Assembly: GCA_944323425.1 (NCBI GenBank)
Contig: CALUSL010000016.1
Span: 1 to 46,065 of the forward strand
DNA: 46,065 bases
From: Candidatus Gastranaerophilales bacterium
GTDB lineage: Bacteria; Cyanobacteriota; Vampirovibrionia; Gastranaerophilales; Gastranaerophilaceae
Direction: 5' to 3'
A program made the translations under genes and the position numbers. Below are positions 1 to 32,824 of this stretch, one piece after another. Positions within the stretch are counted from its first letter, which is position 1. Each line of letters opens with the position of its first letter. The notes below the pieces were generated by a model. That model made no database searches, was not told the DNA's origin, and saw nothing but the letters and a program-made list of their open reading frames with translations.

Positions 1-3000
1 CGGTCATTGAGGTTTGCTGCGGAATCGCCTGCGTTTATTGTAACAGTGCCTGTTGCGTCTATGATGCCGGCATTCACTCCATCACCGTCAATACTTATAT
101 TTCCGCCGGATACTTCGCCTGTGAGGTCAACAAGTGCACCGGAGGAGTTTATGTCAACAAACTCTGAACCGCTGATTGAGCCGCCTGAAGCAAGGGTCAA
201 ACCGTTTACGTCAAGTGTGGTTTGTGCTCCGGATACAGTGCCGGATACGCTCATTGCATTATTATTTGTATTTATGCCGAGAATAGTGTCCGCGATAACA
301 GACCCGGTAATATTCAGAGCACCGGAGTCTATGTTTACTGAGTTTCCTTCGACTCGACCCGTTATATCAAAGTCGTTTCCTCCCGTGTTCAGAGTAACCC
401 GTCCTTCACCAATAACATCTCCGCCGAGCTCAATTCCGTCCGCATCAATACTTATGTCGTTTCCTGATACAGAACCGTCTATGTTTGCGAGTCCTGTTGA
501 ATCTATGTCAACATTGCCGCCCCGGACGCTGCCTGTAATATTTGTTGTACCTGAGGAATTTATTGCAACGGATGTTGTGCCGGTAATGTTGTTTGCGTTT
601 ACTCCGGCGCCGTCTACACTCACATCTGTTCCCGATACGTCACCTTTCAGGTCTACAAGCCCCTGCTGTGAGTTTATGTCTACTGTGCCGCGGGAAACAA
701 CAGCAGCTCCCTGAGCAAGCTCAACACCTACAGCGTCAATAAGTACGCTGCCTGCCTGAATGTTTCCGTTTAGCGTGGTTTTTTCTGTATAAGAATTTAT
801 ATCAAGTGCGTTTTGGGCATTAACACTTCCGAGAGTGACTCCGAGTCCGTCAATATAAACATTTGAACCTGAAATCGCTCCTGCCGCGTTGATTGCTGCC
901 GTGAGTGAGTTTAAATCGACTGTGCCTGTGCCGTTTATGGAACCGGATCCGGCAAGAGTTATGCCATTTGCATCTATTGTGATATCAGAACCGGCGACGG
1001 AACCAGTAATATTGGCAAGTCCGTCTGAATCTATATCAACAGTTCCGCCCTGTATCGAGCCTGTGATATTTGTACCTGCCGAAGAGTCTATAGATACGGA
1101 TGTTGTGCCCGTAATGTCATTCGCATTGACGCCGGCACCTGCTATAGAAACATTTGTACCGGTTACGGTTCCGGTCATATCAGCAAGCCCTGCTGCCGTA
1201 ATATCAATATTTCCGCCGTTTATTGTACCGGCCGCCGTGAGCGCACCTGAAGAATCTATATCAACAAAGTTTGTTCCTGTTACAGTGCTTTGTGCACCGA
1301 GGTTTACGCTGTTTGCATCAAGGTCTATATCTTCACCTGAGAGTGAGCCTGTAACCTCTGCAGAAGAATTCGAGGCATTTATTGTCAGTTTTTTGTCAGC
1401 ACTGAGAGAACCCGAGACGTTTATGCCCGTGTTCTGTACATTTACCGTAGTTGTGCCGCCTGAAATTGCGCCTGCAATATTCGTTGTTCCCGAGGTGTTA
1501 GTTATGTTTAAACCGGCAGTGTTTCTTATATCCGCACCCTGCTCTACTGTTATACCTTTGTTGCCGGAATTGGATATGTTAAGATTCATACCGTTGAGGT
1601 CGCCGGAAACAGTGTTTTTGAATGTTATACCGCCGTTTGCAGCGTCATTTTTAATATTCATTCCCGGAACCGGTGCATTGCTTCCGCCGAGAATAGGTCC
1701 GCTGTCGCCGCCGAGATCTCCTGCTATTACAATAGAACCGTTTCCGCTTCTGTTTTCGATATTCATTTCCGCATAGTTGTTTATTTTTGCCGATTCGTTA
1801 ATCTGAATACCGAAATCATCGGTGTTTCCGCTTCCGGAAACGCCTGTGCCTTCGTTAATAATATTAATTATGCCGCCTGCAGCTATTTCACCCTCTTCGA
1901 GTACATTTCCGTCGTTGTCAACAAGAGTTCCGTCGCTGACCATACCGTTGTTGATAGTACCGTTGATAATTATGCCGCCGCCGACATCGCCTTCATTACC
2001 GCTGTTGATGAGGTTTATAACACCTGTGTGTATTGCACCGTCGGCTTCAACACTAAAGTTAGAAAGTGAAGCGTTTTCGGCAAGAATCAGACTGCCCTGC
2101 CCGTTGCTGGAATATGTGATTTCATTACCCCAGTTCTGAAGCTTCATTCCTATTATGACATCGGCATCGGGATCTTCTACAGCCGTGTCACTCTCAAATA
2201 CGGAATCAGCCATGAATCTGTTTATAAGTGTGCCAAAGAGTGTCATATCACCGGCGTGGTTAAGGAAACGAAGTATTCCGTGGTTGTCAATTACGCTTTC
2301 AGGCAGGAAGTGGAGTCCGCCCGTTCCCCAGTTTTCGAATACAACACGATTCTGAGAGCCTGCAACAGTTCCGTTCACAACATTCGCGCTGACATTTAGT
2401 GCACCGGCTCTGTTGTTTACGATGACTGAACTGGATTCTCCGTCTGCGTCGTTAACAAGATTGTTGTTTATTGTACCGCCGATGTTTGCACCGAGCTGTC
2501 CCGAGTTGTTAATTGTGACCGTGCCGCGGTTGTTGATTGTGCCTGAGGTTGTGATTCCGGTGTTTGCACCTGTGTTCGAGGCTGTGACGGTCATATCTTT
2601 TGCATTGTTAATCGTGCCGGTGAGTGAGAGCAGACCGTCCGCTTTGTTTTCAATGTTTATATTTTCCGCTGCAGACACATCGTGAACGGTAAGAGAACCG
2701 CTGCCGGATGTGTTGTTTACAACAGAGACTCCGCCCTGTGTGCTGTTTATTGCTCCGAGCATTGCAATATCGCCGCCTGTGGCGGAGAGATTAACGTTTC
2801 CTCCGCCGCTGATAACAGAATCAGCGTTCTGGGTCAAACTTCCGTTTGCCGCGATGATGTCTACTGTTGTGCCGGCTGTGATATTGTCATTAATTGCGGC
2901 AGATGTTGCCGAATCAATATTTACCGACGTATCAGAAGTAATGCTTCCGTTTGTAGTTACGCTGCCCGTAGAATTTATATCAATGATACCGCCCGAGATT

Positions 3001-6000
3001 GCGCCGTTTGCCGTGAAGTTTCCGCCGTTTGAGTTCAGGATAACATTTTGATAACCCTGTATTGTCCCTGTGGTGAGGGGATTATCGTTTGATGTCAGGT
3101 AGATATTGCCGTTTGAACCTGTATTTTCTGCAATGATAGCTGACACAACGCCGCCTGATGACAGAATGATGTTATTCGAAGCCGAGCCGATGTTTCCTGA
3201 CTGAGAGTTAAGAGAGATGTCTCCGCCGGCAATAAGTGAATTTCCTGCGGTGGTCTGGGTTATGTCATTTTGTGCATTGATTGCTATATCTCCGCTGCCT
3301 CCGGCGTTCAATACGTCTGTAAGCTGTACATTTCCGCCCTGTGCATTGTTGTTAACCGTTATGCTTCCGGAATTTGCGTTTACGTTTTTCAGGACTATAT
3401 CGCCTGTTGATTTGTTTGTGATTGAGATATCACCTTCCTGCGTGCTTTGAATAAGTCCGCCCTGAGTGATTCCGTCGTTTGCCGCAAGGGTTATATCTCC
3501 TGTTGCCGTAATGTTTTTCGACATATCAAGATTTTTTGAACTGTCAAGGTTTATATAACCGTTTGCATTTAGATCATTTGTAAAACTTATGTTTCCTGCA
3601 TCTTCACCTGTTGAAGATATGTCTATATTCGTTCCCGCGCTAATTGTTCCAAACGAAATATCTGTGTTTACGCTGTTGATATTTACAGAACCAGTGTTCG
3701 CAGTAACGTCTACTGTGCCGCCTGCCTGCACATCAATTTTGCTGTCCTGAGAGCCGACGCTGTTACCTGCGCTAAGGGTAATATTTCCTCCGGTTTTTAA
3801 AGATACATCGGTAGATGCGTCCTGTAAAATGCTGTTTCCGGCATTAATTGTAATATTTCCGCCGGTTGCTTCCATAAGCGCTGCCAATGTAACGTTGCCG
3901 GTTCTGGAATCAAGATTTATGCTTGTTCCGGCTGTAGTGTCCCCGTTCATGTTTATGTTGCCGTTGTTGGCAATAACGCTCAGGCTGCCCTGTTCTGCGC
4001 CTATAGAATTAAGAGTTATGTCTCCTGTAGTGTTCGATACCGAGACATCACCGCCTGTAGACACAATACTTCCCGAGGTCTGGTTTATGGCTTCCTGCGC
4101 AATTATTGTAACTCCGCCGGAGGCAGTCAGACTGTTCGAGATGGAAAGCCCTCTTCCGCTTTCTACTCTGATGTAGCCGCCCTCTGTGGTCAGGTCGTTG
4201 TTCATTATAATGTCGCCGTTTGATGAGAGGTCAATGTTTTCGGTGGCTGTAATTTCACCGAATGTTACACTGTCATCAGCGCCGTTCAGGTGTACGGAGC
4301 CGTTTGTTGCGTTTGCATTAATTGCAGTCGGCGAGCTTACGTTTAATTTATTTGATTCTTCGCCTATATTTGCGCCCTCAAGCGTGATTGCTCCGGTCGA
4401 AGAGACCGCTTTCTGCAAGCCGGAACGCTGTTTTATGTCATTTACCGCGTCAAGGCTGACTCCGCCGGTGCCGCCGGAGATGAGTTCGTTTATTTGTATA
4501 TTTGATGCTGTTGCGCTGACCGAGTTTGTGCCGGTAATTGCGGCATTGTTTGTCAGTGTTCCTGTAGCATTCAGATCTACATCACCGCCTGTCAGGGCTG
4601 CTCCCAGCGTAATATCCGATGCTTCAGCGCTAACATTGCCTGTGCCTGTAATTGCTTGCGAGTTTGTGATTGTATTATCAGCGATAAGACTGATATTTCC
4701 GCCTGACAGTATGCCGTCTATGGCAATAGTGTCTGCGTCAATATTAACACTGTTTGTACCATCTATTGATGCTGTATTTCTGAAATTTCCGTCCGCATCA
4801 AAGGTAAGGCTGCCGCCGGAGACGGTTTCTCCTGTTGTGATACTGTCTGCGTCAATATTAACAGTGTTTGTGCCGGTAATTGATGCTGTATTTTCAAACG
4901 TTGTACCGGAGGTGATATCCACATCGGACGCTTCGATTGAACCGCCGACAGAAACGGAGTTTGCATCTATATCCACAGTGCCCGATGCTGTGACAGAGCC
5001 TGTGTTTGTGAATGAATTTGTTGCGGAGAGAGTTGCGTTCTGAGCCGTAACATTGCCCGCAAGAGAAAAATCCGTGCCTTTTGCAATAAGAGAGCGTGTT
5101 GCGGTAATGTCATTGTTTACGGTCAGAGCGTTCAGTGCTGTTAACAGAACATCTCCACCAGTGATAGTTCCATCCGTCTGAATAGATTTGCCGTTTAGTG
5201 ATACTGTATCAAAGCCGGAAATGTTTCCTGTTTTGAACAAATCCTGTTCAGATGCAAGATAGATATTTCCGCCGTTTTCAGAATCCTGAGCAATTGTTGC
5301 GTTTACCGCCTCAGGAGAATTAATCATAATTGCCTGTGAGTCAGTACCTATGTTTCCGGACTGAGAAGAGAGATTAACTGTTCCGGTTGCATTTATAAAG
5401 GTGTCAGCCGCGGTCTGTGTAATATTTCCGGCTGCACCGACAGTTATATCCTGACCGTTTATTGCTCCCGCTATAACGGTGTTTTCGCCGCTGCTTACAC
5501 TGACATTTTCTCTTGCGTTGAGTCCTCCGACAGTAACGGTACCGTTCTGCGCAGTGCTGTCTACAGTGATATTTCCGCCGGAAACGTTGTTAAGCGTGAC
5601 AGAACCGGAGGAGTTTGTTACTGAAACATCAGAGCCGGTGGAGCTTACCAATCCGCCTGTCTGGTTTATTCCGTTTTGTGAATTAAGCGAAACAGAACCG
5701 GATGCGGTAATATTTTTCGACAGTTCAAGGTCTTTTGCGCTGTCAATTGTGATAGAACCGTTGTTTGCGGTAAGGTCGTTTGATAGAGTGATTTTACCGC
5801 CGTTTGTGCCGACGGAAGAGCCGAGTTTTATGTCAGTACCGGCAGATACAGTTCCGAAAGTGACATCCGCATCAACACTGTTTACGTTAATCAAACCGGT
5901 TGTAGCCGTAACATCAACTGTTCCGCCAGATGAAAAGTCCAGTGCAACATCGTTTTCTCCAATATTTGTACCGGTTAGAGTCATATTTCCGCCGGAAGCC

Positions 6001-30563: not shown

Positions 30564-31142
30564 TTATAGACAGCCTTTTGTCGAAGGAACTGTGTCTGTG
30601 CCGTTTTGTGCTGCGGCATTTTTAAGCGCGCGTGCAAAGGATTTGAATGCCGCTTCTATGATATGATGTGTGTCGTTTCCGTTTAACTGTTTTATGTGAA
30701 TTGTAACGCCGGCATTTGCTGCAAAACTTCCGAAAAAGTGAGGAACGAGAATTGTTTCAAAATCAGATACGCGCTCATTTTTCAGCTCGAGTCCGACTGT
30801 TGAATATGCTCTGCCCGAAATATCGATTGCGCATAGCACAAGTGCTTCATCCATAGGCAAAATACATTGACCGTAGCGGTTTATTCCCCGTTTGTCGCCG
30901 AGTGCGTTTGAAAACGCCTGTCCCAGCGCAATAGCAGTATCTTCAACAAGATGATGCAAGTCAGAATCTATTGATTTTGCAATTATTTTTACCCCGAATC
31001 CGGAGTGGCATGCGAGCTGCTCCAGCATATGTTTGAAAAATTTGCATTCACAATCTATTTCATATCCGCTGTTTTCATCCAGCGTTATTTGAACATATAC
31101 TTCAGTTTCTTTTGTATTTCTCTGTATTTCACCTTTTCTCAT
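30564..31142 (-). CDS. hisB: Imidazoleglycerol-phosphate dehydratase
   Basis: This 192-residue, single-domain HisB makes imidazole acetol phosphate from imidazole glycerol phosphate. Both metal-binding His pairs are present, 'DLHHLVEDTAIALGQAF' (near 61-77) and 'NDTHHIIEAAFKSFARAL' (near 155-172), and 'KFFKHMLEQLACH' corresponds to the usual FxDHMLxQxxxH. The Asp of that motif is Lys here, while the ligand His is kept. It overlaps the upstream hisC-HAD gene by four bases (ATGA), so translation is coupled. Unlike E. coli HisB it carries no phosphatase domain. That activity is probably in the neighbour. Confidence 0.93.
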   Translation of the reverse strand: MRKGEIQRNTKETEVYVQITLDENSGYEIDCECKFFKHMLEQLACHSGFGVKIIAKSIDSDLHHLVEDTAIALGQAFSNALGDKRGINRYGQCILPMDEALVLCAIDISGRAYSTVGLELKNERVSDFETILVPHFFGSFAANAGVTIHIKQLNGNDTHHIIEAAFKSFARALKNAAAQNGTDTVPSTKGCL

Positions 31143-32824
31143 CGAATAAATTCTCCAAGCTGATTTACATTATTTATAACATATTTTGCGCCGTTATTTA
31201 AGAGCAGGTCTGCCTGTTCTCTTGTTCTTGCAACCCCGAATCCTGTTATTCTGAACTCTTTTGCGCATTTTACATCGTCTATTGTATCTCCGATATAAAG
31301 CATTTTTCCTGCATACACGGAATTTTTTATTATCTCAAGCCCGAGTGTATCAGGCTTTTGACGTTCCTGCGGCAGGTCATTCATTGTAACTATTTTAGAA
31401 AAATATTTTAGAATGTTAAATTTTTTCAGGGTAAATTCTGCTTCAACCCTTGGTCTGCCCGTAAATACACCGAGTATATAACGTTCTGACAGAGCCTTTA
31501 AAATTTTCGGGTCTGCTATCAGGCTTTCATCGTTTATGCAGCCTTTTCCGTTGTTCCAGTAGAGCTGCTGAAATTTTTCTACAATGTCATCATAAGGAAC
31601 CCAGGTTCCTGCTGCTTTGAGAAGATGGTAGGTTAAATCCCAGTCATTATTCAATCCGCCGAGATTCTTTGCGTGCTGGATTTCTTCCTGCGAAATATCC
31701 CGTTTTGAAAAGTATTTGTAAGTCTCTGCTATAGCGAGTCTGTAAGAATTTTCAACATCTACCAGCACACCGTCCATATCGAATACAATCACATCTTTCG
31801 GTCTGATAAGCGCTGCAATTTTTTGTGCGGCTTCAAGTGTAGGAAGAGTAATTCTGAGAGATTTCAGATTCTCAAATTTTTTCACGACAATTCCGTGCTT
31901 TAAAAGCACGCTGTATACGTAGTCTGTTTTTTCTCCAAACTCTGCTATGATAAAGTTTGCGTGGGATTCGTAAACTTTTGCGTTGAGTTTTTTGAATTCT
32001 TTTGTGAGAAAATCTTTGGATTTTTTTAGTTCGTTTTTTATGAATTCCAAATGTTCTGTGTCAGAAAGTGCAGCGACTGCTGCTTTTACGGCAATTTCAT
32101 TTACATTATAAGGACTGAGCGATTTTTTTATGTTGTTTATATTTTCGGGATTTGATATCACGAATCCGACTCTGAGTCCTGCGAGCCCGTAGTCTTTTGA
32201 CATTGATTTTATGACTGCAAGATTCTGATAGGTCTTTGTTAAAGAAATGCAGGAATACGGCGCGAAAGAACCGTATGTCTCATCGACAACCACGAGTTTT
32301 TCTTTAAAATGTTCGAGAATATATTTTATTTGTTCGGGCGGAATGATTGCGCCTGTAGGGTTGTTCGGGGTAGTGAGATAGATGATTTTTGTGTCTTTTC
32401 CGACAGATTTTACTAATTTTTCAAAAGGAAATTCCCAGCGTTTTTCGTGCGGAATTTCAATGTATTTTGCTCCCTGCTGGGCTGCGTAGATTTTCGGCAT
32501 TGAAAATGACGGAGTGACTGTTATGATTGAGTCAGAAGGTTCTATATAGGTGTTTATTACGGCTGATATAGCCTCATCAGCCCCGTTAGTCAGTGCTATT
32601 GCTGATTTCTTTACGCTGAATTTTTTCGCCAGCGCTTCAATCAGTTCTCCGTAATACGGATAATGCGAAATATCAGTAATGGCAATGTTCTTTATCGCTT
32701 CTATGACTTTTTTTGACGGACCTATATAATTTTCATTAGAATCAAGTTTCATTTCCCATTTTTCGGGGAAAAGTGCTGTTTCATAAATTTTTAGGTTTTT
32801 TAAGGCTTTCTTTGGTTCAATCAT
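31139..32824 (-). CDS. hisC: Histidinol-phosphate aminotransferase fused to a HAD phosphatase
   Basis: A 561-residue fusion. Residues 1-343 are a fold-type I aminotransferase of the HisC group: 'TNGADEAISAV', 'TTPNNPTGAIIP', 'VVVDETYGSF' and the PLP lysine in 'SMSKDYGLAGLRVGF' (about 210). Residues 347-561 are a subfamily I HAD hydrolase: motif I 'VFDMDGVLVDVENSYR' (Asp about 350), motif II 'GVFTGRPRVEAEF', motif III Lys in 'QKPDTLG' and motif IV 'LYIGDTIDDVKCA'. The order of the next steps of the pathway (dehydratase, aminotransferase, phosphatase) matches hisB plus this fusion. The HAD part is therefore most likely the histidinol-phosphate phosphatase. That is inference from context; the domains themselves are clear. 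No strong ribosome site precedes the ATG. Confidence 0.88.
   Translation of the reverse strand: MIEPKKALKNLKIYETALFPEKWEMKLDSNENYIGPSKKVIEAIKNIAITDISHYPYYGELIEALAKKFSVKKSAIALTNGADEAISAVINTYIEPSDSIITVTPSFSMPKIYAAQQGAKYIEIPHEKRWEFPFEKLVKSVGKDTKIIYLTTPNNPTGAIIPPEQIKYILEHFKEKLVVVDETYGSFAPYSCISLTKTYQNLAVIKSMSKDYGLAGLRVGFVISNPENINNIKKSLSPYNVNEIAVKAAVAALSDTEHLEFIKNELKKSKDFLTKEFKKLNAKVYESHANFIIAEFGEKTDYVYSVLLKHGIVVKKFENLKSLRITLPTLEAAQKIAALIRPKDVIVFDMDGVLVDVENSYRLAIAETYKYFSKRDISQEEIQHAKNLGGLNNDWDLTYHLLKAAGTWVPYDDIVEKFQQLYWNNGKGCINDESLIADPKILKALSERYILGVFTGRPRVEAEFTLKKFNILKYFSKIVTMNDLPQERQKPDTLGLEIIKNSVYAGKMLYIGDTIDDVKCAKEFRITGFGVARTREQADLLLNNGAKYVINNVNQLGEFIR

Follow-up and report, generated by a model that had tools for sequence, protein, structure and literature searches.

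A HisC-HAD fusion in Candidatus Gastranaerophilales, a proposed bifunctional histidinol-phosphate aminotransferase/histidinol-phosphatase related to the TIGR01548 phosphatases

In E. coli and Salmonella, histidinol-phosphatase is a HAD-type phosphatase fused to another enzyme of histidine biosynthesis, HisB, and the resulting HisNB protein joins steps 6 and 8 of the pathway. The N-terminal domain of E. coli HisB belongs to the capless HAD subfamily IIIA. The partners recorded in his gene fusions by Fani et al. 2007 comprise hisA, B, D, E, F, H, I and N, with hisC absent (PMC1963479). Histidinol-phosphatase is also the commonest low-confidence amino acid biosynthetic step in diverse prototrophs (42/148), and HisN is counted as a novel gap in Synechococcus elongatus (PMC7311316). 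In Haloferax volcanii it is the last gap in histidine biosynthesis, the candidate being HVO_0431, given its histidine-requiring insertion mutant (PMC8305020).

The window analysed here, 46,065 nucleotides of DNA from Candidatus Gastranaerophilales, a gut-type group related to cyanobacteria, encodes a HisC-HAD fusion of 561 amino acids at 31139..32824 on the minus strand (ATG start, TGA stop, read from 32824 to 31139), for which we propose the name hisCN (histidinol-phosphate aminotransferase/histidinol-phosphatase). It is followed on the same strand by hisB (30564..31142), encoding a monofunctional imidazoleglycerol-phosphate dehydratase (IGPD) of 192 amino acids that consists of the IGPD domain alone (NF002111, 234 bits, over cut-off; PF00475, 190 bits). 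The two genes are joined by an ATGA stop/start overlap at 31139..31142, minus strand, where the ATG of hisB lies over the TGA of the fusion; the junction reads CGATGAGAAAAGG, with ATGA at 31142-31139. An initial sequence-only reading had described both the joining of HisC to a HAD domain at these coordinates and the coupling of a stand-alone HisB through ATGA, and both descriptions are borne out, the first by profile matches to each half. HisNB and the present fusion share the principle of a HAD phosphatase joined to another histidine enzyme; they differ in the partner, and the HisC-HAD fusion would join the consecutive steps 7 and 8.

The HisC domain occupies residues 1-339 (31808..32824, minus strand) and is a member of TIGR01141, the histidinol-phosphate transaminase family, matching over residues 6-338 with 284 bits against a cut-off of 276.55. 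Equivalents of E. coli HisC Y20, Y55, D184, Y187, K214, R222 and R335 are all kept, among them K210, D181, Y184, R218 and R324 in fusion numbering. The PLP-binding lysine K210, equivalent to E. coli K214, is encoded at 32195..32197 (minus strand) and is invariant in the 20 fusions aligned.

The remaining residues, 340-561 (31142..31807, minus strand), form a HAD-IA phosphatase domain with a C1 cap, in which all of the HAD motifs can be discerned, each encoded on the minus strand. Motif I, D349-M-D351, supplies the nucleophile and the acid/base (31772..31780, invariant); motif II is FTGR (454-457; 31454..31465, invariant among fusions); the motif III lysine is K490 (31355..31357, invariant); and motif IV is GDTIDD (512-517; 31274..31291), with G512, D513 and D517 invariant. 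Between motifs I and II lies the cap signature GGLNNDW (389-395; 31640..31660), which is common to TIGR01548 and to the HADs of histidine operons. The best HAD family for this half is TIGR01548 (116.7-120 bits, against 63 bits for Pfam HAD_2; residues 344-527), and it carries that family's hallmarks: all HAD motifs, an alpha-helical C1 cap and the NNDW cap signature. Its score nevertheless misses the TIGR01548 cut-off of 140.2 bits, as do those of the other fusions tested (103-125 bits), which places the fused HADs in a related group and not among members by the score rule. TIGR01548 is the top-scoring HAD family for every fused and histidine-operon HAD tested (103-133 bits). An AlphaFold2 model of the domain has a HAD fold in which helices inserted between motifs I and II form the C1 cap, and its nearest solved folds are HAD-IA phosphatases; the model of the full-length fusion has a pLDDT of 87.9. 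Could the fusion be an aminotransferase only, with a HAD half that is structural or degenerate? One relative without hisB, G022, has indeed lost its HAD cap, but DxDG, FTGR, the lysine, GDTxDD and the cap motif GGxNNDW are kept with almost no exceptions across the 20 aligned fusions, the catalytic motifs are intact in both halves of every fusion inspected, and the HAD domain is modelled confidently (pLDDT 94.7), so that a role for the HisC half alone is barely credible.

Comparison with the E. coli enzyme bears on where this phosphatase came from. The sequence-only reading had placed the phosphatase on the HisC side rather than on HisB, and as a statement of position this stands; a move of the phosphatase from HisB to HisC is rejected, because the HAD subfamilies differ (IIIA in HisB, IA here). 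The capless E. coli HisB N-terminal domain and the C1-capped fused HAD share a mere 19-residue blastp match (E 0.03). TIGR01656, the HisNB-type HAD-IIIA family, is not among the matches listed for the HAD half, and with its helical cap the domain falls outside that family. This difference of subfamily argues that the fused HAD was recruited independently instead of being relocated from HisB. The best match to the HAD profile in the PDB is the Tt82 phosphatase of Thermococcus thioreducens (PDB 6iah; 109 bits, the next being 56), which differs in being archaeal and free-standing, and whose paper stresses diverse substrate specificity in its title (cited in PMC9226320).

The genome to which the window belongs (2.03 Mb, 99.85% complete) otherwise encodes HisG, HisD, HisF, HisH and a HisA-HisIE fusion. 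The last is a single ORF of 408 residues with PF00977, PF01502 and PF01503 (HisA-HisI-HisE; L125 922-2148, plus strand; G000:C4:35921-37147), and thus the scattered his genes of this genome have been compacted by a second fusion. A search for another histidinol-phosphatase, which the sequence-only reading had called for, recognised none of the PHP, IMPase or HisNB type: IMPase-type HisN (PF00459/TIGR02067) has no match anywhere in the genome; no ORF passes the HisNB-type HAD cut-off (TIGR01656, 84.15 bits), partial generic HAD matches lying far below it; and the best match to PHP-type HisJ/HisK (TIGR01856, cut-off 90.2 bits) is partial, at 26.4 bits. The HAD half is therefore the sole step 8 candidate by known families. 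The PHP proteins of the genome are DnaE and two short proteins of 288 and 220 residues, either of which might be imagined to be the true histidinol-phosphatase, leaving the HAD half to clear a side product of the pathway. We regard this as very improbable, because both proteins fit nucleoside-bisphosphate phosphatase/RNase AM (TrpH-like) models best and score far below the HisJ family cut-off, and because PHP proteins of such sizes are also found in related genomes without hisB.

The fusion is kept across the order Candidatus Gastranaerophilales. In 39 genomes, comprising the window's own and 38 relatives, a full-length fusion is present in 22 (the window's own included), the others being 42-85% identical to it, and split or partial fusions are found on draft contigs in three more. 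The full-length copies rule out chance read-through as the origin of the ORF. hisB is found in exactly the 25 genomes that have a fusion, on the same contig and directly after it; of the 14 genomes without hisB, 13 also lack the fusion and one (G022) has a damaged copy. The G022 gene (L042 2307-3818, plus strand) appears to be decaying, with an intact HisC half and a HAD half that has lost its cap and has a changed motif II. PHP proteins that pass the HisJ-family cut-off occur in Gastranaerophilales without hisB, for example in G004, G013 and G020, where they likely have another function or serve salvage from histidinol phosphate.

Unfused relatives of the HAD half were sought by scanning named genomes with the HAD alignment and then analysing the gene neighbours, which extends the survey of the fusion's distribution proposed at the outset to histidine-operon HADs of other phyla. 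A separate HAD gene lies exactly between hisC and monofunctional hisB in ten Acidobacteriota histidine operons (L050-L052, L054-L059, L084), and the same unfused hisC-HAD-hisB order is found in histidine operons of Roizmanbacteria (L060) and Gottesmanbacteria (L062); the adjacent hisB is IGPD-only where tested. In a Woesearchaeota contig (L074) the order is hisI-hisG-hisD-hisC-HAD, followed by the contig end. The operons of Acidobacteriota, Roizmanbacteria and Gottesmanbacteria thus have the same families in the same order as the Gastranaerophilales fusion, but differ in that the HAD has its own gene and most or all of the pathway is in one operon. The unfused hisC-HAD-hisB operon is likely the arrangement that preceded fusion, and in Gastranaerophilales the neighbouring genes would have fused from this order, the direction of the event being our interpretation. 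Another Roizmanbacterium (L070) has a HisC-HAD fusion of its own. In trees of both halves the Gastranaerophilales fusions group together and L070 is sister to the unfused L060, so that the fusion arose at least twice. The L070 fusion is adjoined in its histidine operon by a HisG-HisD fusion of 624 amino acids (2043-3917, plus strand).

Some relatives of the HAD half are found away from histidine genes. In the HAD tree one unfused HAD, L053, sits on a long branch inside the Gastranaerophilales fusion clade. It is a free-standing gene of a goat gut bacterium (4992-5702, plus strand) near pgk; no his genes were detected up to 5 kb away, and it may be a product of fission with a changed role. TIGR01548-like HADs of deltaproteobacteria and spirochaetes (L105, L114-L117, L119, L121, L124) have no detected his gene closer than about 5 kb. 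Those of L105, L114, L115, L117, L119, L121 and L124, mostly deltaproteobacterial, are 331-353 amino acids long with a long insertion. The deltaproteobacterial proteins may possibly be that group's histidinol-phosphatases. A Haladaptatus HAD encountered in a plasmid search, beside amino-sugar genes, is unrelated, its best models being PpaX and phosphoglycolate phosphatase.

What might fill the histidinol-phosphatase gap in cyanobacteria and haloarchaea? In a strict search of 14 control genomes, S. elongatus and H. volcanii were the sole carriers of TIGR01548. Disruption of HVO_0431, which encodes a HAD protein, causes histidine auxotrophy (PMC4300041); in the passages of that report consulted here, this rests on one insertion site in two identical isolates, with an apparently mistyped table coordinate and no mention of complementation (PMC4300041). 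In Haloferax prahovense one small ORF separates a TIGR01548 gene (223.6 bits) from the npdG downstream of it (TIGR01915, 254.5 bits); HVO_0433 is npdG and the spacing is the same, and by this synteny HVO_0431 would be the TIGR01548 member of H. volcanii. The candidate that GapMind gives for S. elongatus, Synpcc7942_1763, which is either the TIGR01548 gene or another phosphatase, is dispensable, and if it is the TIGR01548 gene this speaks against the wider claim for the family. Across 146 Cyanobacteriota genomes, hisB is found in 69, and in counts that are phylogenetically non-independent and inflated by relatedness, 53 of these 69 have TIGR01548 over the cut-off and 2 the fusion (55 together), a strong HisN (TIGR02067, 250-291 bits) is found in 9 others, all of one family and 4 of them over the strict cut-off, HisJ is over its cut-off in a further 3, and 2 are in none of these sets. 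There is zero overlap among the three sets in hisB-containing genomes, and every TIGR01548-positive genome has hisB. HisJ-like or HisN-like proteins are also found in some genomes without hisB, so neither of those families is exclusive to histidine makers. The stand-alone TIGR01548 HADs of cyanobacteria and haloarchaea have the NNDW cap and all HAD motifs in common with the fused HADs, at about 29-35% identity over their full length. The cyanobacterial copies differ in having FSGAT at motif II where the fusions have FTGRP, and, unlike the fused and operon HADs, their genes are not beside hisC or hisB in the loci examined. On the evidence of a single insertion that causes auxotrophy, of synteny and of genome statistics, the histidinol-phosphatase missing from cyanobacteria and haloarchaea is likely a TIGR01548-type HAD.

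Promiscuity is frequent among HAD-IA phosphatases, whose substrate is not fixed by sequence. The HAD half might accordingly cleave some other metabolite, such as phosphoglycolate, a sugar phosphate or a damaged intermediate, having been fused to HisC by chance, with an unrecognised or promiscuous enzyme acting on histidinol phosphate. The general HAD-IA models for phosphoglycolate phosphatase and PpaX do match this half at 40-56 bits, the fold accepts many substrates and the genome has several further HAD ORFs; against these points stand the HAD between hisC and hisB in the histidine operons of other phyla, the exact co-occurrence of the fusion with hisB, the auxotrophy of the Haloferax homologue and the complementarity of TIGR01548 to HisN and HisJ, and we consider this explanation improbable. 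We infer that the substrate is histidinol phosphate, given where the HAD lies in operons, its co-occurrence with hisB, the gap that it fills and the auxotrophy of a homologue. That the HAD domain is a histidinol-phosphatase, as first proposed from the sequence, is supported by the missing alternatives and by the hisC-HAD-hisB operons elsewhere. The fusion is thus very probably a bifunctional HisC-histidinol-phosphatase (HisCN) that catalyzes steps 7 and 8, with step 6 provided by the coupled HisB. The N-terminal PLP half would convert the imidazole-acetol phosphate produced by HisB to histidinol phosphate, and the C-terminal HAD half would dephosphorylate this product by the aspartyl-phosphate mechanism usual for HADs, yielding the histidinol that HisD uses. 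Since steps 7 and 8 are consecutive, putative passing of the substrate from HisC to the HAD domain is plausible.

HisC-HAD lies outside the known fusions hisNB, hisIE, hisHF and hisIED when set against the partner list of the 2007 survey (PMC1963479). A search of the literature on Melainabacteria histidine biosynthesis and on cyanobacterial HAD histidinol-phosphatase did not find it, most subscription journals being outside its scope and an earlier description being possible. The fusion brings in hisC, a partner missing from that survey, and because it joins consecutive reactions it is a reasonable system in which to look for substrate passing. The fusion ties a HAD family of 'unknown' function to the histidinol-phosphatase step, and points to one testable gene in cyanobacteria and haloarchaea. 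We think it probable that TIGR01548 and its histidine-operon sister group constitute one ancient histidinol-phosphatase family, distinct from HisNB, PHP and IMPase enzymes, that would account for the unsolved step in haloarchaea and in most cyanobacteria, Prochlorococcus among them, and that has been fused to HisC at least twice.
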